From: Methanoregula sp.
GTDB taxonomy: Archaea; Halobacteriota; Methanomicrobia; Methanomicrobiales; Methanospirillaceae
Direction: 5' to 3'
DNA: 64,000 nucleotides
Assembly: GCA_026625165.1 (NCBI GenBank)
Contig: CP112999.1
Span: forward strand, 62,001-126,000
Shown here: piece after piece, positions 5,311-17,557 of the stretch
How the letters are laid out: every line of letters begins with the position of its first letter
How positions within the stretch are numbered: position 1 is the stretch's first letter
Notes under the pieces: model-generated
The model's input: only the letters and a program-made list of their open reading frames with translations
Told to the model about the DNA's origin: nothing
Databases searched by the model: none
Translations under genes and position numbers: made by a program

Positions 5311-6819
5311 ATGCGCCTCGCCTCCGAACTCAAATCAAAGATCGACTCCCTCTGGGACAAGTTCTGGAGCGGCGGCCTCTCTAACCCGCTCCAGTCCATC
5401 GAGCAGATGTCCTATCTCATCTTTATGAACCGGCTTGAGGAGATGGATACCTTCGAGCAAAAAAAGGCACAGGCAAACAAACAATCCTACAAATCCATCT
5501 TTGAAGGGCAGGAGGATTGCCGCTGGTCCCACTGGAAACATTACCCGGCAGACAAGATGCTCGTCCATGTCCGGGACTTGGCCTTTCCCTTTATCAAGAA
5601 TATTCATGACGGGGAAAAGACGCTCTTTGCCCAGCACATGAAAGATGCCGTCTTCATGATCCCCAAACCTTCGCTCCTGCAGGAAGCCGTCGCCATCATC
5701 GATGACCTCAAGATATCGGCACAGAACCGGGACACACAGGGCGACATCTATGAATACCTGCTCTCGCAGCTCTCGACCGCAGGGAAGAACGGGCAGTTCC
5801 GTACGCCCCGGCATATCATCCGGATGATGGTTGAGCTCGTGGACCCGGACATCAATGACCGGATCTGCGATCCTGCCTGCGGTACAGCCGGGTTCCTGGT
5901 CAACTCATACGAGCACATCCTCAGGAAATACACAAGCAAAGACAAGATCGAAGAAGATCCCGAAGGAGGATATCATAACCTTCTCGGCGATAAGATCACC
6001 GACCCGAAACACTGGGACAAGCTCTGGACTGACACGTTCTATGGCTATGATTTTGATACTACCATGGTCAGGATCTCGCTGATGAACATGGTGCTCCACG
6101 GGATCAAAGCACCACGGGTCGAGCAGAAAGACACGCTTTCCAAGGGATTCAGGGAATCGGAGTGGTATACCATCGTGCTTGCCAATCCCCCGTTCAAAGG
6201 CAGCATTGACAAGAGCGATATCAACGACGCCCTCACCATCCAGACCACCAAGACCGAACTGCTCTTTGTCGAACGGATGATGCACCTCCTCCAGATTGGC
6301 GGGAAGTGCGGGGTCATCGTGCCGGATGGCGTGCTGTTCGGCAGCTCCAATGCCCATAAGAAACTCAGGCAGATCCTGCTGGAAAAGTGCCAGCTCGAAG
6401 GGATTGTTTCGATGCCATCCGGTGTGTTCAAGCCGTATGCCGGTGTCTCAACCGCAGTCCTGATCTTTACCAAAGGCGGGAACACTGATCGCGTCTGGTT
6501 CTATGACATGGATGCTGACGGGTACTCTCTGGATGACAAACGGACTTTCATTGATGGGAAAGGGGATATCCCGAATATCATCCAGCACTACCGCAACAGA
6601 AAGAAAGAGAATCCCACAGACCGGAAGGATAAATGTTTCTTTGTGCCACTCAGTGAGATCAAGGAAAACGGATACGATCTCTCCATATCCCGGTATAAGG
6701 AAATTGAGTACGAAGAAGTCCAGTACGAGAAGCCGGAAGTAATTATTCAGAAGATTGAGACGCTTGAGAACGAGATACAGAAAGGGTTGAATGATCTCAA
6801 ATCATTGATTAAAAAATAA
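5311..6819 (+). CDS. hsdM: Type I restriction-modification DNA methyltransferase subunit
   Basis: A 502-residue HsdM of normal length. The N-terminal helical domain (about 1-140) includes LWDKFWSGGL and IFMNRLEEMD. The catalytic domain has GQFRTPRHI near residue 160, the S-adenosylmethionine-binding motif DPACGTAGF at about 187-195 and the target-adenine motif NPPF at about 292-295, all intact. It should methylate N6 of adenine, but only with an HsdS subunit to supply sequence specificity. No intact hsdS or hsdR is present here. The next gene downstream is an Xre regulator, and only hsdS tail relics lie upstream. The gene therefore looks orphaned unless its partners are elsewhere. Confidence 0.93.
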   Translation: MRLASELKSKIDSLWDKFWSGGLSNPLQSIEQMSYLIFMNRLEEMDTFEQKKAQANKQSYKSIFEGQEDCRWSHWKHYPADKMLVHVRDLAFPFIKNIHDGEKTLFAQHMKDAVFMIPKPSLLQEAVAIIDDLKISAQNRDTQGDIYEYLLSQLSTAGKNGQFRTPRHIIRMMVELVDPDINDRICDPACGTAGFLVNSYEHILRKYTSKDKIEEDPEGGYHNLLGDKITDPKHWDKLWTDTFYGYDFDTTMVRISLMNMVLHGIKAPRVEQKDTLSKGFRESEWYTIVLANPPFKGSIDKSDINDALTIQTTKTELLFVERMMHLLQIGGKCGVIVPDGVLFGSSNAHKKLRQILLEKCQLEGIVSMPSGVFKPYAGVSTAVLIFTKGGNTDRVWFYDMDADGYSLDDKRTFIDGKGDIPNIIQHYRNRKKENPTDRKDKCFFVPLSEIKENGYDLSISRYKEIEYEEVQYEKPEVIIQKIETLENEIQKGLNDLKSLIKK

Positions 6820-7129
6820 TTAATTTTTCATCCGCTCAATATTGGCAGTTTCCTTAAACTGCTCATGTTAATCAAAACCGATTCACTATATTTATAAACT
6901 TCTGTCAATTATGTTGTAATCAATCATGCCATCTGAATTAACTTACCTGCATACAGACAAACACATATTCATACACATTTTCAGATGAACATGCCGACAT
7001 AGAAACAATACTGGAAAATAAATTTTTTGTGTTCTCCGACAAAATATTTTATATAGAATCAAAGGTTTACTTAAATTGTAGAAATTTCTAAATTTGTAAA
7101 CTTGGAGAGATGAGGCTCTGCGGTGCATT
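6820..7129. other. Intergenic region between hsdM and the Xre gene
   Basis: 310 bp, strongly A+T-rich, without a convincing gene. Its right end holds the promoter and palindrome described separately. A nine-codon reading frame starting at ATG 7110 ends at 7139 and could be a leader peptide, but this is not supported further. Confidence 0.5.
7047..7101 (+). promoter_or_regulatory. Promoter and imperfect operator of the Xre-ImmA gene
   Basis: TTTTATATAG at 7047-7056 is a good archaeal TATA box. It is followed by GTTTAC (7065-7070) and its inverted copy GTAAAC (7096-7101), flanking the palindrome GAAATTTC (7081-7088). The symmetry is imperfect by one to two bases. A dyad at the expected transcription start suits autoregulation by the Xre protein encoded next. 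Confidence 0.5.
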
Positions 7130-8155
7130 ATGTCAATAGGTGAACGTATCAAATCGGCCAGGATTAATGCCGGGTTATCGCAACAGGTGCTTGCCGAAAA
7201 GATGGGACTTTCCAAAATGGCGATCTCAAAATATGAGAACGGGACGGTTACTCCGAATTCAACCGCCCTTATCGGCTTGTCGGATGCTCTCAATGTCAGG
7301 GTGGAGTTCTTCTTCCGTCCGCGAGCCCCCCGGCTCTCAAAACCGGATTACCGTTGCCGGAAAGCTCTGTCGCCAAAGGACGAGACGAAAATCCTCGGCA
7401 AGACCAGCGACTGGCTTGAGCGGTACCTTACTATCGAGCAGATCACCGGCTCGGAAAAGCCACTCACCCTTCCGGATGAAGATCGCTGCCGGGTCTCTTC
7501 GTTGGATGACATCGAGGAAGTGTCGATGAACATCCGGAATGCATGGGATCTCGGCCTTGATCCTATCGAGAACCTGATGGACGTTCTGGAGCAGCATGGG
7601 ATAAAGGTCGGTGTCATTGATGCGCCGGTGAAATTCGATGCTCTCACGATGTGGTATAACAATGTGCGCCCGCTCATCATTGTCAATATGAGGTTCTCCG
7701 GAGACCGCCAGCGTCTTAGCCTTGCGCATGAACTCGGGCATTTGCTCCTGAAGCTTGAAGAAGGCATCGATTCTGAAGAAGCTGCGTTTCATTTTGCCGG
7801 TGCGTTCCTGATTCCAAAACCGATGGCGATCATGGAGCTCGGGCCGAAACGAAAGATGCTGGACTTCCGGGAACTATACGTGATCAAACATAAGTACGGG
7901 ATAAGCATGGGGGCGTTGATTTACCGCGCAAAGAACCTTCACATCATCTCAGATGCGGCAGCAAACCGGCACTGGGTCGAGATGCGGTTGCATAAATGGC
8001 ACAAAACGGAACCGGGTGCACAAATCGAACCGGAGGTCCCGACTCATCTCGAACTCCTCCTGCTCCGGGCCCTGAGTGAACACAAGATATCGGAGTCCAG
8101 GTTTAATGAATTGAGAGACGAACACACTCCGATACTTGCCGTACCATGCCAGTGA
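7130..8155 (+). CDS. Xre-HTH / ImmA-IrrE zinc peptidase regulator (antitoxin)
   Basis: A 341-residue protein. Residues about 4-60 form an Xre/Cro helix-turn-helix (IKSARINAGLSQQVLAEKMGLS region). Residues about 150-260 are an ImmA/IrrE (COG2856, M78) metallopeptidase with the zinc motif HELGH at 200-204. Such Xre-COG2856 fusions are known as antitoxins or as anti-repressors that cleave regulators. Its neighbour is a PIN-domain gene, an arrangement predicted as a toxin-antitoxin system in comparative surveys. The upstream palindrome suggests it represses its own operon. ATG 7130 is chosen because the HTH begins directly after it. Confidence 0.88.
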   Translation: MSIGERIKSARINAGLSQQVLAEKMGLSKMAISKYENGTVTPNSTALIGLSDALNVRVEFFFRPRAPRLSKPDYRCRKALSPKDETKILGKTSDWLERYLTIEQITGSEKPLTLPDEDRCRVSSLDDIEEVSMNIRNAWDLGLDPIENLMDVLEQHGIKVGVIDAPVKFDALTMWYNNVRPLIIVNMRFSGDRQRLSLAHELGHLLLKLEEGIDSEEAAFHFAGAFLIPKPMAIMELGPKRKMLDFRELYVIKHKYGISMGALIYRAKNLHIISDAAANRHWVEMRLHKWHKTEPGAQIEPEVPTHLELLLLRALSEHKISESRFNELRDEHTPILAVPCQ

Positions 8156-8162
8156 TGTAAGA

Positions 8163-8666
8163 ATGAAGAGCAGAAGGCCGTGTTGCATCGATACCAATAT
8201 CTTCTTCGATTTTATTGCAGGGGATATTTTCGATCAACTGTTTCTTCTGCCATTCAGCTTCCAGACCTCCGAGTTTATTCCCAAAGAGATTTCCGGATCA
8301 TTCTCCCGTCAACAGTTGAAGGATCTGGGAGTGAATCTTCTGATCCTTACAGATGCGGAAGTAAAAGAATTACATGCAATCAAACAACAGCACATCGAGC
8401 TCTCTATTGACGATGTCTCAGTTTTTTACCTCAGTCGGAAACATAACATCATGATCCTTTCCAGTGACGAACTATTGCGAAATCTCGCCGCTGAAAGCGG
8501 GATCGAATACCATGGTACTCTCTGGCTGCTGGAAGAACTCATTAAAAATGATCTTCTCTCGTCGCAGGAAGCAGCTGATGCATTGCGAAAGATGCTCGGA
8601 AAGAAACGCTGGCTGCCAATAGCAGAATGCGAGAAACTAATCAATATGTGGGAATCAGAAAAATAG
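8163..8666 (+). CDS. PIN-domain putative toxin RNase
   Basis: 167 residues from ATG 8163 (MKSRRPCCIDTN). An ATG at 8136 would overlap the preceding gene by 20 bp and add a tail not needed by the fold. The PIN signature is clear: an early CIDTNIFFDF strand with the first catalytic Asp, an acidic Glu in EFIPKEI, a central DDVSVFYLS and ILSSDELLRNLA near the end. PIN proteins are Mg-dependent endoribonucleases. Paired with an Xre-ImmA/IrrE gene 8 bp upstream, it is probably the toxin or effector of the couple. Confidence 0.82.
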   Translation: MKSRRPCCIDTNIFFDFIAGDIFDQLFLLPFSFQTSEFIPKEISGSFSRQQLKDLGVNLLILTDAEVKELHAIKQQHIELSIDDVSVFYLSRKHNIMILSSDELLRNLAAESGIEYHGTLWLLEELIKNDLLSSQEAADALRKMLGKKRWLPIAECEKLINMWESEK

Positions 8667-9721: not shown

Positions 9722-10408
9722 TTACAATCGCAGTAATTCGCCTAACTTCGTCAGCTTCACCCCGACATTCTTCCCCTTCTTCTCCTTCTCAATCAGCCCC
9801 ATCTCTTCGAAATTTTTCAAATGGTGGGAGAGCCGGCTCCGTTCCTTGGGAAATGCATCCGAGTTCTTCCTGATATCGGGTGTGAGCCGGATGACGAGGT
9901 CATCGAGTGACGTAACCCCCTCCCCAATAGCGTCAAGAATGCGCCGTTGCTCCGGCTTAATAACATTGAGCGGGAGCGGGGGCAATGCAACGATGTCTTC
10001 GATCCCGACCTCTTCATCGTCCTCATCATATTCCGGAATCGCGGTGATCATCTTCGAGCGTGTGATGCACCCGGCAATATAGGCGGCGATCGAGAACGTG
10101 CGCAAAGAGCCGCTCATGTTGAGGATCACATCGCTGCCGCCTTCCTGATCGGTGCGTATAATGTCCGTGATCTGCTGGGCAGCCCGCATGACATCCTTCT
10201 TGTCAATTTGCCTTATCCCGACATCGAAGAATACGCGAAGATCTTTTTTGAGTTCTTCCGCGATCCCGCGGGCTTTCCGCTCACCGGTTGACTGCTGTTC
10301 GCCAATCACAAGGATGATCTTATTGATAGAAAACGATTGCACGCTGCGGATGGACTCGATCAGCCGCTCTTTTGAATGTCCTACAAAGACAATTGCCGTA
10401 GTTCCCAT
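9722..10408 (-). CDS. Csa3-like CARF-domain transcription regulator with C-terminal wHTH
   Basis: 228 residues. The N-terminal part (about 1-130) is a Rossmann-like CARF domain: a first strand AIVFVG followed by a helix, then VILNMSGSLRTFSIAAY, the typical nucleotide-binding NxSGxxR motif of Csa3-type CARF proteins. Residues about 145-228 form a winged helix (KPEQRRILDAIGEG, LSHHLKNFEEMGLIEKEKKG). CARF domains bind cyclic oligoadenylates or related nucleotides, so this is probably a ligand-responsive regulator. It has no CRISPR-Cas neighbours in the window. A perfect inverted repeat lies in its divergent upstream region, and a second CARF protein is encoded at 15403-15897. Confidence 0.85.
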   Translation of the reverse strand: MGTTAIVFVGHSKERLIESIRSVQSFSINKIILVIGEQQSTGERKARGIAEELKKDLRVFFDVGIRQIDKKDVMRAAQQITDIIRTDQEGGSDVILNMSGSLRTFSIAAYIAGCITRSKMITAIPEYDEDDEEVGIEDIVALPPLPLNVIKPEQRRILDAIGEGVTSLDDLVIRLTPDIRKNSDAFPKERSRLSHHLKNFEEMGLIEKEKKGKNVGVKLTKLGELLRL

Positions 10409-10454
10409 TGGTTACACTACAATTATCAATCATAATAAAAAAGTTTGTTGGTAA

Positions 10455-10484
10455 AAAATAATTTTACACATGAAAAATTATTTT
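10455..10484. promoter_or_regulatory. Perfect 11-bp inverted repeat, candidate CARF-HTH operator
   Basis: AAAATAATTTT at 10455-10465 and its exact inverted copy AAAATTATTTT at 10474-10484 are separated by 8 bp, so the half-site centres are 19 bp apart, close to two helix turns. The site lies between the divergent CARF-HTH gene and the small plus-strand gene, where either could be repressed. Confidence 0.55.
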
Positions 10485-10575
10485 AAGTATGAGTGCTTAT
10501 TTATTTGTTACACCTGCAGCCATGGGGGTGGCTGCTAGGACCAACCTGCGGTCGGGGGGGCCGTGGGACGGACAG

Positions 10576-10938
10576 ATGAATATTCAAAATGAAGGAGTGG
10601 AGTGTTTGTCTGATTTCGAGAGTTTGCTGTTGGAAGATCCGGAGATTGAATGGGTCAAGCTCAAAGTTTTCGATGACCACAATGTCGCGGTCGGGTTGTA
10701 CCGGAGCCGGAATACAATGACAGGCCGGGTCCATGTGTCAGCCTACCGGTTCAGCACAGAAGAGTTCCTGGGCGAGGAGATGCAGCAGGCCGATGTCCTG
10801 CCCGGGACCAGACGAAGCTTTAAAAAACGGGACCTGAAGATCGCCCGCTGGTACTACAAACAGCTCTGCAAATCGTTCAAAAACGGCATCGTCGTCTGGA
10901 AAGGATCCAGTAAATCATCGCTCGGGAGATGGGACTGA
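10576..10938 (+). CDS. Small hypothetical protein at the head of a small-gene array
   Basis: 120 residues from ATG 10576 (MNIQNEGVECLSDF). The frame is open upstream to ATG 10489, but that extension is of unnatural Gly/Arg composition and lies close to the operator region. The protein is soluble, with a VKLKVFDDHNVAVGLYRSR segment and a basic C-terminus. No family recognised. It begins a run of closely spaced plus-strand genes continuing to 12672. Confidence 0.55.
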   Translation: MNIQNEGVECLSDFESLLLEDPEIEWVKLKVFDDHNVAVGLYRSRNTMTGRVHVSAYRFSTEEFLGEEMQQADVLPGTRRSFKKRDLKIARWYYKQLCKSFKNGIVVWKGSSKSSLGRWD

Positions 10939-10982
10939 TCCATCCTCCCGGTTATTCAAAAGAGAGGAGATGGGGTAAAAAA

Positions 10983-11279
10983 ATGTCAGTCAGATCGCGC
11001 TATAGCGCATCATCAAACATTAACAGGGGATTTGGAGCGAACTTAAGGAAAAACAGGGCAGTGAAATCCAAACAATCCGGAGAAGTTCAGCACAAAGAGC
11101 CGCAGAAGAGAAAAAGCATCCTGCGGCGGTTCGGTGAATATGTTGCCCGGAACCAGGCAGCACTGAGAGCTGCCGGGGAGACAACCCTGGCAGAAGACCT
11201 GTCTGATATGGGCAGGAAGATGTGTAACGGACTGGGATCTCTTGGAGAAGAAGAACTGGATAAGGTCCACGGGAGATGA
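10983..11279 (+). CDS. Small basic hypothetical protein
   Basis: 98 residues from ATG 10983 (MSVRSRYSAS), preceded by a purine-rich AGAGGAGATGGGG ribosome binding site. A start at 10929 would overlap the preceding gene and lacks one. The N-terminal half is strongly basic; the C-terminal half is a predicted amphipathic helix ending LGEEELDKVHGR. No family recognised. Part of the small-gene array. Confidence 0.55.
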   Translation: MSVRSRYSASSNINRGFGANLRKNRAVKSKQSGEVQHKEPQKRKSILRRFGEYVARNQAALRAAGETTLAEDLSDMGRKMCNGLGSLGEEELDKVHGR

Positions 11280-11399
11280 TGCCTGCTCAAGCCTGCCGGG
11301 AGTTCAAGTAAGAAATCTACGTTGTGAGTGAGTCGAAGAAATCATCGAATGGGAGATGGGACTGAACAGTCCCTCATCCCTGCAATCAGGGGGTTTGCT

Positions 11400-11477
11400 A
11401 TGGATCACGAGAGGAAGATGCCGGTAGACGGCTGGAGCAATATGTTCCCGCCGGAGGATGGCAGGTATGGCCTGTGA
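11400..11477 (+). CDS. 25-residue open frame in the small-gene array
   Basis: A tiny frame beginning MDHERKMPVDGWSNM, preceded by AGGGGG at a ribosome-binding distance and overlapping the start of the next small gene. Its reality is uncertain; the overlap and the binding site are the only support. Confidence 0.3.
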   Translation: MDHERKMPVDGWSNMFPPEDGRYGL

Positions 11478-11586
11478 GTCGCAGTTCGGGCTCGGCTTCC
11501 TGCTGGGCGTGCTGACGAGCACGGCCATTGGGGTTATCATCATGATGATGACGCAGAGGAAAGGGGATGTTTCCCGGAAACCGTAG
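11467..11586 (+). CDS. 39-residue single-pass membrane peptide
   Basis: Starts MACESQFGLGFLLG and runs through one clear hydrophobic segment (about residues 7-29), followed by a basic tail QRKGDVSRKP. GGAGG lies upstream at a plausible distance. The positive-inside rule would put the tail in the cytoplasm. It overlaps the preceding tiny frame and ends 61 bp before the next gene. Small membrane peptides beside defence or phage-like genes are common, but the role is unknown. Confidence 0.45.
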   Translation: MACESQFGLGFLLGVLTSTAIGVIIMMMTQRKGDVSRKP

Positions 11587-11647
11587 GCAGGATACGGATC
11601 CGTTCTCATGCCATGGGAACGACCTGCCCGCTGCTGCGGGAGAGGTC

Positions 11648-12094
11648 ATGGAAGTAAGGGGTGTCGAGGCACAGGAAACTCCGGCAGCGGACGGTGATAA
11701 AAAATTATCCCGGGAATGGTATTTCCGTGCAAGCGCGGGGTTCTCCTCGCTCGTCATCAACCATGAGCTTGAGCGGATCATAACGTATGCGCTGGATGTG
11801 GACACCCATGCGCATAACCTGGGGGTGCTGTGGAAGAATGAGCCATTCCCGACGGAGCGGTTCTTCCAGGAAGCTGCCCGGATTGTCGAACGGTCGGACC
11901 TGGTTGAGGAGAATGTGGTCGCGCTCAAGAACGCGGTTGTCCGCTTTGTGCGTGCGGGCCAGCCTGCCCAAGAACACGCATCCCGGCTGTCGTGCAGGAG
12001 CCACAGGTCACGGTGGCGGGTGTCGCACAGATACATGGCGCCTGCCCTTCGTGAGGGCGAGGGCCCCGGGCAGCCTGATGGAGTGGGACCATGA
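11648..12094 (+). CDS. Hypothetical protein, possible frameshift near 11955
   Basis: 148 residues from ATG 11648 (MEVRGVEAQETPA), preceded by GGGAGAGG. The central helical part (EWYFRASAGFSSLVINHELERI and on to NAVVRFVRAG) looks natural. After about 11955 this frame turns into an Arg/Ser-rich string, whereas the -1 frame reads PAVVQEPQVTVAGVAQIHG and stops at 12054. Either a -1 frameshift has occurred or one frame is chance. The annotated frame ends in a 4-bp ATGA overlap with the next gene, which argues the other way. No family recognised. Confidence 0.45.
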   Translation: MEVRGVEAQETPAADGDKKLSREWYFRASAGFSSLVINHELERIITYALDVDTHAHNLGVLWKNEPFPTERFFQEAARIVERSDLVEENVVALKNAVVRFVRAGQPAQEHASRLSCRSHRSRWRVSHRYMAPALREGEGPGQPDGVGP

Positions 12095-12450
12095 CCGGGG
12101 ACCCTGCTCCGGTGCCGGTCGCCCAAGTGCCGGCACTCATCCGGCACGATGACGAGGAGGCAGTCATCCTGATGGTGACCCGCATGATCACGCACCGGAA
12201 CCACAGGATCGCCGAACTCCTTGACCAGTTCGAAGAGGGCACCAGCCGGATGCACCGCGAGCGCATGCCCCGGAGCATCAGGAAGTCATCCGATGAACTG
12301 ATCGGGATCGCCGACCAGATCCACGGGCTTGCAGAGGACAATGGCTACGACACGCGGAAGATGATGGTCTACCTCGAACGCCGGCAGAAGCAGGGCGAGA
12401 GCGAGGAAGGGATTACCGGCCACCACGGTCAGGTGTGCTATATCCAGTAA
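12091..12450 (+). CDS. Hypothetical helical protein in the small-gene array
   Basis: 119 residues, soluble and helical, with a His/Arg-rich centre (MVTRMITHRNHRIAELLDQF) and a C-terminal YLERRQKQGE segment. GGAGTGG lies upstream of ATG 12091. It follows the preceding gene with an ATGA overlap and is followed after 15 bp by the von Willebrand fragment. No family recognised; position suggests a partner of the vWA protein. Confidence 0.55.
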   Translation: MTGDPAPVPVAQVPALIRHDDEEAVILMVTRMITHRNHRIAELLDQFEEGTSRMHRERMPRSIRKSSDELIGIADQIHGLAEDNGYDTRKMMVYLERRQKQGESEEGITGHHGQVCYIQ

Positions 12451-12465
12451 ACGGGGGGTTTTGGT

Positions 12466-12672
12466 ATGGGATCAGACAAGAAGGCAGGAGGAAAGCGGGG
12501 TGCGGAAAAACCACCGCATGAAGGCCACAGGCCTTCTGGAAAGGATGTGACCGAGATCATCTGCATCATCGACCGGAGCGGCTCGATGGAATCGATCCGC
12601 AGCGATGCAATCGGGGCATTCAATAGTTACCTTTCCCTCCCTACATCGCCATATCGCAGGGGACCCCCATGA
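12466..12672 (+). pseudogene. Truncated von Willebrand A-domain gene
   Basis: Starts at ATG 12466 after a GGGGGG ribosome binding site. Residues about 28-60 are the beginning of a vWA domain: IICIIDRSGSMESI, with the metal-binding DxSGS motif, then GAFNSYL. Homologous domains continue for another 130 or more residues, but here similarity stops near 12630. The sequence then passes into the upstream region of a truncated RNase J-like gene. The last residues (PTSPYRRGPP) are junction sequence. The gene is therefore broken by a rearrangement. Confidence 0.7.
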
Positions 12673-12998
12673 CCTCCATCACCATCCATGACGGCGCGGA
12701 ACCGATTGGCGGAAACAAGATCCACGTCGAACACAAAGGCCGGGGCGTCTTTCTGGACTTCGGCACCAACTTTTTCAAAACCTCGCAATTCTACTCCGGC
12801 TTTCTCCAGAACCGGGCCTCGCGGGGCATCAGCGATGCGCTCGCGCTCAATATCATCCCGTCGCTCAACATCTACCGCAAAGACCTCGTGCCGGCTGATG
12901 TGAACGTGGCCGGGTTCGCGGCCTGTCCGGTCGATGCGGTGCTGCTCTCGCATGCCCATGTGGATCATTTCGGGGCCAGTCGGCTGATCCAACAATAA
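12669..12998 (+). pseudogene. Truncated RNase J-like MBL gene (N-terminal 100 residues only)
   Basis: Begins MTSITIHDGAEPIGGNK, closely paralogous to the start of the full-length gene at 13869, and continues to the first metal motif HAHVDHFG before ending in ASRLIQQ and a stop. The paralogue is 515 residues long, so about 80% is missing, including the second half of the metal site and the beta-CASP domain. The roughly 38 bp upstream also resemble those upstream of 13869. The two copies differ at many positions, so the duplication is old. It cannot be an active nuclease. Confidence 0.8.
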
Positions 12999-13072
12999 AC
13001 CATCGTTTCGGACCATCGGGATCATGATTAAAAAGGATATTCACCGTATATTGATCGGAAGGAGCGGGTCAT

Positions 13073-13384
13073 GTGCATGCACTTATCAGGCGCCGGAAAA
13101 AAAAGATAGAGGCATTCTGTAAGGCATGGAACGTCAGGGAGCTCCAGGTCTTCGGCTCCGTGACAACCGATCGTTTCCGACCGGAGAGTGACATCGATAT
13201 CATCGTCGATTTTCTTCCCGGCACCCGTCATACCCTCATCCAGCTTGCAAAAATGGAAGTGGAGCTCGAACAGATCTTCGGACGGCACACCGATCTCATC
13301 ACCCGGCAGGCGGTAGAGGAGAGCAGGAACTACATCCGCAGAAAGAGCATCCTTGCATCCCTTGAGAAAGTCTATGGCGCGTGA
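13073..13384 (+). CDS. MNT-domain nucleotidyltransferase antitoxin (MntA-like)
   Basis: 103 residues from GTG 13073, with GGAAGGAG upstream. The minimal nucleotidyltransferase motif is complete: FGSVTTDRF, then SDIDIIVDF with both catalytic Asp residues. In MNT/HEPN systems this protein adds AMP to a tyrosine of its HEPN partner and so silences the RNase. The HEPN gene follows with an 11-bp overlap, as expected. Here the HEPN frame carries an early stop, so the pair may be decaying. Confidence 0.85.
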   Translation: MHALIRRRKKKIEAFCKAWNVRELQVFGSVTTDRFRPESDIDIIVDFLPGTRHTLIQLAKMEVELEQIFGRHTDLITRQAVEESRNYIRRKSILASLEKVYGA

Positions 13385-13718
13385 TGATGCGTATCTTCTC
13401 GATATTCTCTTTTAAGCACAGGATGCCCGCGAATTTATACGAGAACATACCAGGGAATCATTCGGTGCTGATCGCCAGTGCCAGTACGCGGTCATCCGCT
13501 GTCTTGAAGTGATCGGGGAAGTCTCCAAGCGGCTCTCTCCAGAGACACTCAACCGGCTCGACTCCATCGAATGGTCAGCAATGGCACGGATGCGGGACAT
13601 GCTCATCCACTCGTACGGAAAGGTGGACCTTGATGACGTCTGGAACACCGTAAATCTGGATATCCCCCGGCTTATCCGTGTCATCGGACCGGAAGTCCAA
13701 CAGAAGAATCAGAATTAA
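13374..13718 (+). pseudogene. HEPN (DUF86, HepT-like) RNase gene with in-frame stop
   Basis: The reading frame starts at ATG 13374 (MARDDAYLLDILF) and hits TAA at 13413-13415, codon 14. It then continues unbroken as AQDAREFIREH to 13718. Without the stop it would be a 114-residue DUF86 HEPN protein. The RNase motif R-x4-H followed by Tyr (RDMLIHSY) is intact near the C-terminus; the Tyr is the AMP acceptor in studied systems. Later in-frame starts would remove the first helix. Either this is a pseudogene, or readthrough or internal initiation occurs. Confidence 0.75.
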
Positions 13719-13868
13719 ACGACAGGAACCGGGGACTATCTTTTTTTTTAAAATTTTAAAAAAATATCACATCCCGGGACATATGCCTGTCAACGCTCTC
13801 ATCACAGACAACAACCCCCCCATTTTATCCTCTTTCCCGCCAACCCTCCATCATCTCAGGTGCATCCC

Positions 13869-15416
13869 ATGACCTCCATCACCATCCATGACGGCGCCGA
13901 ATCGATTGGCGGCAACAAGATCCATGTTGAGGAGAAGGGCCGGGGCGTCTTTCTGGACTTTGGCAAGAACTTTGCAAAATCCGGTGCATTCTTCTCGGAA
14001 TTTTTGAAGGAGCGACCGGGCAGGGGCCTCAACGATGCATTCTTCCTCGACCTTGTGCCAAAACTCAATATCTACCGGAAGGACCTGGGAACCACCGATC
14101 TTCCGCTCACCCGTTTTCCCTCTCCCTCCGTTGAAGCAGTACTCATCTCGCATGCCCATGTGGATCATTTCGGGAACATCGGGCTCTTAAACGAGAAAAT
14201 CCCCATCATTGCAACACCGGTCAGCCTTGCCATTATGAAAGGGATGCAGGACACCTCCCCCACGGTCGGCTCCGATACGGTCTACTTCTCAAAAAAAGTA
14301 CCCAATGATAAGAAAGGACTTCTCCTGATGACCGGTAAGGACTCTTACCGGGGCAGGAATTTTTACTGTACAGGAAAGCCGTCGGATGCCCTGCATAAAT
14401 TTCTTGCATTGCGCCCCTCAGGAGAGAAAGCGCATAAGTCTCTCGTTCCCGGGATTCTTTCCTCGTATGACCAGCTCAACCTCCCGTTTGAGGTGAGGTC
14501 GTATGAAGTGGACCACTCAATCTACGGGGCCTGTGCCTACCTCCTCACCGGGCAGAACACCATCGCATATACCGGGGATTTCCGTCTCCACGGAAAGCAT
14601 GGCGACAAGACACGGAAGTTTGTGGATGCGGCAAAGGAAGCATCCGTCCTCATCTGTGAAGGGACGACGGTGACACGGAAGAGTGCCTGCGATGCGAAAG
14701 GTCCCGTGTCCGAAGAATCGGTACGGGAAACCTGCCGGGCGGCAGCAGAGTCAGCCAAAGGGCTGGTGATTGCAGATTTCTCGCCCCGTAATTTCGAGCG
14801 GCTTGAATCATTCCTCTCGATTGCCGGAAAGACCGGGCGTGAACTCGTAGTCACGGCAAAGGATCTGTACCTGTTCCTGGCGCTCAGCTGCACTGATATG
14901 CCCTGCCCGAACGACCGGTTGAAGATCTATTATGAACTCAAGGACCGGAAGAATGCAAAATGGGAGACCGAAGTGGTGATGAAGCAGTGTCCGGACCAGT
15001 ATATCGATGGTGCGGCAATTGCAAAGAACCCGGACAAATATATCCTGTGCTTCTCGTTCTTTGATATGAAAAATCTCCTCGACATAAAACCGGATGGCGG
15101 GACCTACATCTACTCGTCGTGCGAGGCCTTCTCCGAAGAGATGGAATTTGACTTCAAACGCCTTGCAGAGTGGCTCAAATATTTCAACTTCGATGTGAAG
15201 GGCTTTGGACTGTGTGCAGAGGGAGATGCAATAACCCCGGTGTTTGATTCTGCATTCCACGCTTCGGGGCATGCATCACCGGACGATATTACCCGGGCTA
15301 TCGATACCATCGACCCGGACATCATCATCCCCGTCCACACAGAAAACCCTGCCTGGTTTGCGGAGAAGTGGGAAAAGACGCGGATCGTGCACAACGGTGA
15401 GCGTGTTGAGTTCTGA
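13869..15416 (+). CDS. RNase J-like beta-CASP metallo-beta-lactamase nuclease
   Basis: 515 residues from ATG 13869, with AGGTG upstream. The metallo-beta-lactamase core shows HxHxDH at 95-100 (HAHVDH) and YTGDFRLHG with Asp about 237. The beta-CASP region follows, with ADFSPRNFERLESF, the motif ASGHASPDD near 465 and the terminal PVHTENP with His about 490. These are the hallmarks of RNase J/CPSF-type nucleases, so a zinc-dependent RNA nuclease is expected. Homology of the middle (residues 110-200) to known RNase J is not obvious, so it is probably a divergent subgroup. It is the first gene of an overlapping operon with a CARF protein, a PIN RNase and a HAD protein. An N-terminal paralogue fragment lies at 12669. 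Confidence 0.85.
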   Translation: MTSITIHDGAESIGGNKIHVEEKGRGVFLDFGKNFAKSGAFFSEFLKERPGRGLNDAFFLDLVPKLNIYRKDLGTTDLPLTRFPSPSVEAVLISHAHVDHFGNIGLLNEKIPIIATPVSLAIMKGMQDTSPTVGSDTVYFSKKVPNDKKGLLLMTGKDSYRGRNFYCTGKPSDALHKFLALRPSGEKAHKSLVPGILSSYDQLNLPFEVRSYEVDHSIYGACAYLLTGQNTIAYTGDFRLHGKHGDKTRKFVDAAKEASVLICEGTTVTRKSACDAKGPVSEESVRETCRAAAESAKGLVIADFSPRNFERLESFLSIAGKTGRELVVTAKDLYLFLALSCTDMPCPNDRLKIYYELKDRKNAKWETEVVMKQCPDQYIDGAAIAKNPDKYILCFSFFDMKNLLDIKPDGGTYIYSSCEAFSEEMEFDFKRLAEWLKYFNFDVKGFGLCAEGDAITPVFDSAFHASGHASPDDITRAIDTIDPDIIIPVHTENPAWFAEKWEKTRIVHNGERVEF

Positions 15417-15897
15417 ATCCACCTACATCACAATGACCGGCCGGTCGGTCTGGGCCCTGCTAAACGCATACTATGCAGTGCTCCGCGAGACCGCATTCCG
15501 GCCCACGCAGATCATCATCCTGTCCGAGACCGAGCACGCGGGTCAGATTCCGGTCGTGAAGAACGGGCTTAAAATTCTTTCAGACGGGTACAAGATCAAC
15601 CCTCAAGTGGATGTGGAGCAGGTCCCGACCGGGGATTTCATCGAAGCGGGCAGGAAAATCTCCGCACGGATAAGGGCCGGTAAAGAACAGGGGAGCAGGG
15701 TTGCCATCGATATCACACCGGGCCGGAAAGCGCTGGTGGCCGGGGCGCTCATCCCGCTTGCCAGCCTTTCTGTGGATCACGTCTTCTACCTCCAGATCGC
15801 CTCCACAGACGATGCTGCAAAACCCTACATGATGATCCCGCTCGCGTCCCAGCAGCTCAAGGATCTTTGTGCCACATCCCCGCAGGTGGTACCATGA
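15403..15897 (+). CDS. Single-domain CARF protein (nucleotide-signal sensor)
   Basis: About 164 residues from GTG 15403; GTG 15397 and TTG 15406 are alternatives, all inside the 3' end of the nuclease gene. The fold is a CARF Rossmann domain and nothing else: first strand TYITMTGRS with a following helix, a second strand TQIIILSE, and the signature VAIDITPGRKALVAGA, matching the DxTxGxK ligand loop of CARF proteins. Known CARF domains bind cyclic oligoadenylates, some cleave them, and they control attached effectors. Here the probable effectors are separate polypeptides: the nuclease upstream and the PIN RNase downstream, the latter joined by a 4-bp ATGA overlap. Confidence 0.82.
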   Translation: MLSSESTYITMTGRSVWALLNAYYAVLRETAFRPTQIIILSETEHAGQIPVVKNGLKILSDGYKINPQVDVEQVPTGDFIEAGRKISARIRAGKEQGSRVAIDITPGRKALVAGALIPLASLSVDHVFYLQIASTDDAAKPYMMIPLASQQLKDLCATSPQVVP

Positions 15898-16904
15898 CAC
15901 AGGAAGAGCAGATCTTCATCCACGAACTCCCCCTGCTGCTCAATTACCTGGAATCCTCCCTGTCGGTGTCGTATCCCCTCTACGAATTCGACCTTTTTTC
16001 CGCGAGACCTGATGGCAATGTATACCTGCTTGGTGGTTTTGGGTCCCGCGAAATGTTCGAAGATGCCCGTGCATCATGTGGCACTACAGCACAGGAGATG
16101 CCGGCGTTCAATGACCTCCTGTCCTGCCTGATGAACAGCGGGATCCTTCCGTATGCCAACAGGGATGCATTTGAGGAAAAACTGCGCATGTACAACCAGC
16201 TGAAGAAAGGCGTGCGGTTCGGGCCTGATACGAATGTCTTTTACCATGGCCTGCCGCTCAATGCCGGCATCGACCCGGCAGCATTTCTGCTGGTTGATAC
16301 GGTCAAAAACGAGATTGAGTCCTCGATGAATTACAAGTACTCCCCGAAACAGATCGCCGATTTTAAGCGCACCGCACGGTACCAGAAGCAGCTGCTGGAC
16401 GAGCTGGTCAATGCCAGGACCAAGCGGGCGCGTCTGGCAGCCCACCTCGCACTCCCCCAGTTCAGAGCCATCCGGGACCGGGCCACTATGGTGCCCGCCC
16501 TGGAACCGTCATCGTCTGACAAAGAGGCAAACGATCTCATCATCGTCAGATCGCTCAAAGCATTTGAAAAGGAAAAGTTCGCCCTTCCGGTGATGCTGAC
16601 TGCTGACCGGAACCTTGCAACGCTCTGCGATGCGGAGGGCGTTGAGCATTTCCTCTTTGAGATGCCTGCTGCCATCGGAAAACCCCACTGTACTCCGGCA
16701 GCATTTACGAACCTGCTGGCAACCCTCGCGGGAGTCCTGGGGTTCATCCAGTGCAACTCGGCCGTCATCTTCGGGGAGTACCGGGGAAAAGGCGGCAGGA
16801 GTGATGAACTGAAAGTACAGTTCCTCAACGAAACGCTTATTGAACCGTTCAGGAAGGATCTCACCATATGCCGGAAGCTGCAGGCACTCAACATCGCCAT
16901 ATAA
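15894..16904 (+). CDS. PIN-domain RNase, candidate CARF-controlled effector
   Basis: 336 residues from ATG 15894, which overlaps the CARF stop codon as ATGA. Residues 1-105 are an N-terminal region I do not recognise. A PIN domain follows from about 110: RFGPDTNVFYHG with the first Asp, VDTVKNEIESS with the acidic Glu, SDKEANDLIIVRSL with a further Asp, and MLTADRNLATLC. A C-terminal helical part runs to the end. PIN domains cut RNA with Mg or Mn. A length well above simple PIN toxins suggests extra domains for partner binding. Its stop lies 37 bp inside the HAD gene. Confidence 0.82.
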   Translation: MTQEEQIFIHELPLLLNYLESSLSVSYPLYEFDLFSARPDGNVYLLGGFGSREMFEDARASCGTTAQEMPAFNDLLSCLMNSGILPYANRDAFEEKLRMYNQLKKGVRFGPDTNVFYHGLPLNAGIDPAAFLLVDTVKNEIESSMNYKYSPKQIADFKRTARYQKQLLDELVNARTKRARLAAHLALPQFRAIRDRATMVPALEPSSSDKEANDLIIVRSLKAFEKEKFALPVMLTADRNLATLCDAEGVEHFLFEMPAAIGKPHCTPAAFTNLLATLAGVLGFIQCNSAVIFGEYRGKGGRSDELKVQFLNETLIEPFRKDLTICRKLQALNIAI

Positions 16905-17557
16905 CCGCGGTCATCTTCGATATGGACAACACCCTGTTTGACTTTGTCGAAGCCAAGCTCATCTCGTGTGCGGCAGTCATTGCCTACCTGAATGTTCCCG
17001 TTGAACCCGTGGTGCTGCTCAGATATTTCCTCCGCCCGGCTCACGGGTTCGAGGACCATGAGAACATCCGGGACTTCCTCCGTGACAACGACTGCAACTC
17101 AGAGACCGCATTCGCCCGGTGCTGCGCCATTTACGATGAGGAGAAAGTCGCCGCGATCAGGCCCTACCCGCATGTTGCCGAGACGCTCTCGGCGCTCCGG
17201 TCCCGCGGGCTCAAACTGGCAGTTGTCACCGATGCCCACAACGGCAATGCGCTGAAGCGGCTGAGGAAAGCCGGGCTCGAAGAATTCTTTGATGCAATCA
17301 TCACCATGGATATGCACGGGAAGGCAAAACCCTCGCCCGAGCCGTTCCTGCTTGTCATGAAGAAACTGGGAGTGGCTGCCAGCGAGACAATGCTTGTCGG
17401 AGACAGCATCCGCAGGGACATCCTGCCGGCAAAAGCGCTGGGGATTCTCACGGTGCATGCGGTATACGGGGACCGGAACTTCCATGAGGGGGAAAGGGAT
17501 GGGGCGGATTTTGTTATTCACGGGATAAAGGATTTGATCGGAATAGTACAAGGATAA
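16868..17557 (+). CDS. HAD-superfamily hydrolase closing the CARF-PIN operon
   Basis: 229 residues. HAD motifs are complete: FDMDNTLFDF with the nucleophile and acid Asp (motif I), VVTDAHNG (motif II), the Lys in GKAKPSPEPF (motif III) and LVGDSIRRDI (motif IV). The cap is of the small helical type, as in phosphoglycolate phosphatase and nucleotidase relatives. The substrate is unknown. ATG 16868 overlaps the PIN gene by 37 bp; no later start keeps motif I intact. Being co-translated with a CARF sensor, a nucleotide-directed phosphatase is an attractive but unproven idea. Confidence 0.85.
   Translation: MPEAAGTQHRHITAVIFDMDNTLFDFVEAKLISCAAVIAYLNVPVEPVVLLRYFLRPAHGFEDHENIRDFLRDNDCNSETAFARCCAIYDEEKVAAIRPYPHVAETLSALRSRGLKLAVVTDAHNGNALKRLRKAGLEEFFDAIITMDMHGKAKPSPEPFLLVMKKLGVAASETMLVGDSIRRDILPAKALGILTVHAVYGDRNFHEGERDGADFVIHGIKDLIGIVQG

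Follow-up and report, generated by a model that had tools for sequence, protein, structure and literature searches.

The CARF-HTH gene and the genes that face it

The window, meaning the whole 64-kb stretch analysed here (62001-126000 of a complete 2.17-Mb chromosome), carries on its minus strand a gene for a Csa3-like CARF-HTH protein, termed the regulator below. The genes that face it (10606-17557) all lie on the plus strand, strung out across 7 kb, and the row is interrupted. The features are as follows:

9722..10408, minus strand: CARF-HTH regulator (Csa3-like, CARF3 clade), 228 aa, from Pfam/NCBIfam/PADLOC, AlphaFold2 and Foldseek
10431..10443, minus strand: predicted TATA region of the CARF-HTH gene, TTTTTTATTATG; TATA called by eye, 20/20 identity with Methanoregula locus L004 in block -40 to -21
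10454..10488, no strand: conserved element with the perfect inverted repeat, from alignment of relatives, shuffles and a blind profile test
10471..10487, plus strand: right arm as presumed BRE/TATA of the facing transcript, TGAAAAATTATTTTAAG; called by eye from where it lies with respect to the facing genes, both here and in L046
10606..10938, plus strand: first small gene on the facing side, no family; uncertain start, either TTG 10606 (behind AAGGAG) or ATG 10576
10983..11279, plus strand: second facing small gene, no family
11567..12094, plus strand: possible smallA counterpart, in the same order (weak: hhalign E 0.0015, probability 17%)
12091..12450, plus strand: smallB counterpart (hhalign E 5e-7; BLASTP 3e-6)
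13743..13764, no strand: A/T-only perfect palindrome before the hydrolase gene, with a T-run (possible terminator) and an A/T stretch (possible promoter)
13869..15416, plus strand: beta-CASP metallo-beta-lactamase-fold hydrolase (MBL), RNase J-like; Lactamase_B_2, Lactamase_B and RMMBL above cut-off
15406..15897, plus strand: CARF protein (CARF_m1), start uncertain; PADLOC PDLC01971, E 2e-50
15894..16904, plus strand: PIN-domain protein, other half of a CARF_m1 CARF-PIN; PDLC01973, E 1.1e-11; Pfam PIN_4 0.0037, below cut-off
16868..17557, plus strand: HAD-family hydrolase, overlapping the PIN gene; HAD_2, 111.5 bits

The regulator combines a CARF domain (HFX_2341_N, 51.7 bits) with a winged helix (DUF6293_C, 31.4 bits), both above cut-off, as is HTH_5, and the PADLOC CARF3 clade model PDLC01862 covers residues 1-226 (E 6.8e-98); the Csa3 models fall below their cut-offs (Csa3_N 24.2 against 27; TIGR01884 52.5 bits against 60.2). 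A sequence-only search of solved structures did not return Csa3, but a fold search did: the best solved Foldseek matches of an AlphaFold2 model (two input sequences only, pLDDT 82.5) are the Csa3 structures 6wxq, 2wte and 6w11 (E about 1e-9, with and without cA4). The large rmsd of this match probably comes from domain orientation, so it speaks for the two domains and not for a precise dimer. These matches bear out the sequence-only reading of a Csa3-like CARF domain with NMSGSLR (residues 97-103) followed by a C-terminal winged helix, in which ERSR..HH is invariant across 19 homologs. The closest named relative lies in a Methanoregula MAG, and no relative was found among the viral contigs searched.

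The general CARF motif (D/N)-x-(S/T)-x3-(R/K) (PMC8844856) is present as N97, S99 and R103. Motif 1 of cA4 binding in Csa3, phi-G-F-(N/D)-x-polar-F (PMC8844856), is missing; in a register set by eye on the common glycine, the regulator reads V-G-H-S-K-E-R. For motif 2 (small-x-G-phi-R) it reads S-G-S-L-R, with the arginine kept and the glycine replaced by serine. The predicted pocket therefore retains the general CARF arginine and is without the adenine-stacking residues of Csa3. In the CARF-HTH proteins of four loci (L044, L053, L054, L056) the motif-2 arginine is lost: H or Q stands in place of the CARF-motif arginine, which hints that the ligand site has changed or disappeared in these lineages.

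Among the facing genes, smallB of the relatives' operon (described below) has a clear counterpart and smallA a weak one. No homolog of the first small gene (10606..10938) lies near other CARF-HTH genes, and a PHROGs search of the small genes gave nothing convincing. The row is broken up by a fragment of the 5' part of a hydrolase gene (12669-12998), whose protein is 63% identical to the intact copy at 13869, and by an MNT nucleotidyltransferase and HepT-like pair of toxin-antitoxin type (13073-13718) before the hydrolase gene. Adjoining the hydrolase fragment is a short VWA-like fragment (12466-12672, no Pfam match); the two fragments are traces of rearrangement. The T-run near 13742-13750 may mark a transcription end. 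The intact hydrolase scores below the cut-off of the RNase J model, and the CARF_m1 CARF-PIN model PDLC01973 is matched in two ORFs, 15244-15897 (E 1e-18) and 15867-16904 (E 1.1e-11). Elsewhere in the window, 5311-8666 is defence-like: a type I restriction methylase-like ORF is followed by an HTH and IrrE-peptidase ORF that scores as PADLOC RmrA and a PIN-like ORF.

The inverted repeat and its relatives

Between the regulator and the facing genes lies the 11-bp perfect inverted repeat already noticed in the sequence-only reading (10455-10484): its arms, AAAATAATTTT (10455-10465) and AAAATTATTTT (10474-10484), are complementary at 11/11 positions and lie 19 bp apart, start to start. Both are pure A/T and each is nearly palindromic, so that the repeat is equally a direct repeat. 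Dinucleotide shuffles reach 11 paired positions in 0.3% (whole intergenic region) to 0.75% (AT-rich part) of cases, and only one other perfect repeat with an arm of at least 11 and a spacer of at most 20 occurs in the window, the palindrome at 13743-13764. The 2.17-Mb genome holds a single copy of the site at up to three mismatches; its rarity alone proves nothing, given that a backward control pattern occurs twice per strand. Alignment with L004 shows good conservation over positions -100 to -1 of the regulator gene and drops to background level farther upstream; L004 retains the repeat sequence but not its symmetry (7/11 pairs, same register). Conservation of the perfect symmetry was considered and rejected: it is perfect only in the window, and L043, L045, L064, L048 and L050 do no better than shuffles.

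What recurs is an element of about 35 bp, aligned upstream of regulator homologs in nine loci from eight genomes and four genera (L034, L043, L045, L046, L047, L048, L050, L064 and the window). A scan upstream of all homologs finds half-site pairs 18-20 bp apart in L034, L046, L047, L064, L048 and L050, at about 155-200 bp ahead of the regulator. The element lies 76 bp before the regulator start codon in the window against about 155-180 bp in most relatives, and 64 bp before smallA in L046; as aligned, its position follows the facing genes and not the regulator start codon. A weaker, inverted copy sits at the regulator's own promoter in L034, L045, L046, L047, L064 and possibly L050. A blind DNA profile made from relatives only (seven loci of genera g9 and g14) scores 12.7 bits in L004 and 10.7 bits in the window, and 5.3 bits at the best unrelated place in 784 kb; a reversed-sequence control, scored with the full nine-locus profile and not the blind one, reaches 5.5 bits at best. 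The test works in one direction only, because a profile from the window and L043 finds the relatives' sites weakly (best 7.3 bits, L064). Since, in addition, the alignment offsets had been set by hand prior to the blind test, we regard conservation of the element across genera as well supported but short of proven.

It could be argued that the repeat is just the core promoter of the facing operon with an A/T-rich flank, its palindromic look accidental and the regulator acting elsewhere. One arm may be just a TATA box, and its partner no more than A/T-rich sequence: the right arm suits a BRE/TATA position, and the composition of the arms and the restriction of perfect symmetry to the window fit this as well. 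We nevertheless find it doubtful, because the conserved length (about 35 bp with both arms and a spacing of 18-20) exceeds BRE plus TATA, because conservation of the upstream arm goes with the facing genes and not with the regulator start codon, and because the profile has no other match in 784 kb despite the many promoters there.

A site for control in trans had been proposed near 13760-13868; this found no support, the best half-site match there having 3 mismatches of 11. The idea of one circuit has good comparative support, but with a putative local, divergent regulator rather than one acting in trans: the 2.17-Mb genome has no second full site, and none lies before 13860.

The facing operon in relatives and its distribution

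In relatives, the regulator is faced by a contiguous operon, and the element lies at that operon's promoter. In L045 and L046, smallA, smallB, ARPP-1, a protein X, the hydrolase, CARF, PIN and HAD follow each other on a single strand, several neighbours overlapping slightly, and L047 has the same order as far as the contig end. ARPP-1 through HAD are present without smallA/B in L050; ARPP-1 and the hydrolase adjoin the regulator in L048 (genome G153), where CARF-PIN-HAD is on a separate contig, and in L004 other genes lie between regulator and hydrolase. HAD is the last operon gene after CARF-PIN in loci of families f1, f2 and f4, and is tail-to-tail with CARF-HTH in f3 genomes, which are without CARF-PIN; each of seven genomes holds a clear best match to the window HAD (E at most 5e-48), and the runner-up reaches 4e-33 in g25 genomes but no better than 7e-6 in the remaining ones. 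Relatives in f3 and f6 carry the regulator with neither element nor CARF-PIN.

Cas genes are remote from the regulator, as had been proposed: for the families searched genome-wide (cas1 and Cas10), the two cas1 genes are some 506 and 588 kb distant, and the Cas10 palm domain is absent from the window genome at E<=10. Across the order, the regulator is found in 32/232 genomes (some as fragments), the PIN gene in 59/232 and Cas10 in 21/232, and 27 of the 32 regulator genomes are without Cas10. Neither the regulator (Fisher p=0.18, 232 genomes) nor the PIN gene (p=1.0) is associated with Cas10. For the expected co-occurrence of regulator and CARF-PIN the outcome is mixed: it is not seen order-wide (6/32 regulator genomes, p=0.39) but is strong within family f1 (6/10 vs 3/98, p=8e-6), where genus g9 drives it (p=0.20 without g9); the tests take no account of phylogeny, and many of the genomes are incomplete. 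Almost every genome carries the PIN gene in two genera poor in Cas10, g27 (34/35 genomes, G053-G087) and g31 (12/12, G092-G103), with Cas10 in two genomes of each; there the gene resembles a core function more than a patchily distributed defence gene. In G153 a type I-E cas operon (cas3, cse1, cse2, cas7, cas5, cas6e, cas1; L048 2216-10566) directly follows the CARF-HTH gene, and G154 (matching part of L050) has a similar arrangement, judged by clustering of its proteins.

A candidate circuit and its closest known systems

Taken together, we lean towards a reading in which the Csa3-type regulator controls the facing genes through the conserved two-arm element, the ancestral operon being broken up in the window genome. 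A dimeric, ligand-sensing regulator would act on the divergent genes via the A/T-rich element in the common intergenic region; with one arm overlapping the presumed BRE/TATA of the facing promoter, its binding could block, or help to place, TBP/TFB, and a ligand in the CARF pocket would alter this effect. The overlap slightly favours repression or autoregulation. The ancestral operon would have encoded the two small proteins, ARPP-1, protein X, the beta-CASP hydrolase, the second CARF protein, the PIN nuclease and the HAD hydrolase; because it carries a CARF-PIN nuclease, one signal could both set its expression and act on that nuclease. In the window genome, the hydrolase-CARF-PIN-HAD part may have its own promoter. 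The sequence-only reading had joined the regulator, the small genes and the CARF-PIN locus in one circuit: the trans route is not supported, but since the element in relatives is at the promoter of the operon with the second sensor and nucleases, the two CARF sensors probably belong to one circuit.

More speculatively, this could be a CRISPR-independent methanogen module, in which the CARF transcription factor and the CARF-PIN nuclease of the facing operon read one oligonucleotide or RNA-end signal made by a non-Cas10 enzyme; we put this forward as a tentative idea. That CARF proteins also occur away from CRISPR loci has been on record since 2014 (PMC4012209), though their signal and targets are mostly obscure; that survey is the only literature we found on CARF proteins in these methanogens or apart from CRISPR, and an earlier description of the gene order is possible. 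In the present case a single regulator can be matched with a candidate operator and a target operon, in genomes most of which have no Cas10; what CARF domains sense when there is no type III CRISPR can thereby be tested directly, with a single protein and a 60-bp DNA.

An unlikely variant of the preferred reading is that damaged RNA, not cyclic oligoadenylate, serves as the signal, the PIN, beta-CASP and HAD operon processing RNA ends. The CARF regulator RtcR does have tRNA halves ending in 2',3'-cyclic phosphate as ligand (PMC7790460), and nearly all genomes of two genera with little Cas10 have CARF-PIN-HAD, a distribution unlike that of a patchy defence gene, but the RtcR CARF is divergent, its architecture differs, and no ligase or cyclase gene is seen in the operon. 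Least probable is a standard Csa3 that responds to cA4 made by type III CRISPR and regulates cas genes, its neighbourhood being incidental: the retained N97, S99 and R103, and the regulator's position in G153/G154, in line with the cas operon and about 100 bp upstream, would suit this, but Cas10 is missing here and from most regulator genomes, motif 1 and the motif-2 glycine are lost, and no element matches the profile before cas3 in L048/L050 (G153/G154). For the same lack of Cas10 and of motif 1, the earlier suggestion of Csa3-type control by cA4 is weak.

The closest solved proteins are Csa3 and Csa3a of Sulfolobales (2wte, 6w11, 6wxq), in which, as in the window regulator, a CARF domain precedes a winged helix. 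Sulfolobus Csa3a, an activator, is encoded beside the operon that it targets, on the opposite strand, and binds an imperfect inverted repeat next to the BRE/TATA (PMC4333418); the regulator here likewise stands on the opposite strand to the facing genes, with an inverted repeat beside a presumed BRE/TATA, a likeness read from sequence. In vitro, S. solfataricus Csa3a bound the palindrome no better than control DNA (PMC8699464), so that the shared layout is no proof of binding here. Unlike Csa3, the regulator scores below the Csa3 model cut-off and is without cA4 motif 1; unlike Csa3 of Sulfolobales, it has no cas1 within 500 kb and no Cas10 in its genome, and its nearly pure A/T element differs from both TCCC-N8-GGGA (PMC8699464) and the S. 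islandicus site. RtcR of the bacterial RNA repair operon is, as proposed here, a CARF sensor that regulates an adjoining RNA-processing operon without CRISPR (PMC7790460); with its AAA+ domain it is an activator of the bacterial enhancer type, unlike the window regulator, and the two are likened by layout, not by sequence. Finally, the window's two CARF proteins closely match the PADLOC models CARF3 and CARF_m1 CARF-PIN (E 6.8e-98 and 2e-50), so the protein families are already catalogued; compared with CARF_m1 CARF-PIN, the CARF and PIN parts are here separate, overlapping genes, in an operon with a beta-CASP hydrolase and a HAD hydrolase, facing a CARF-HTH gene.
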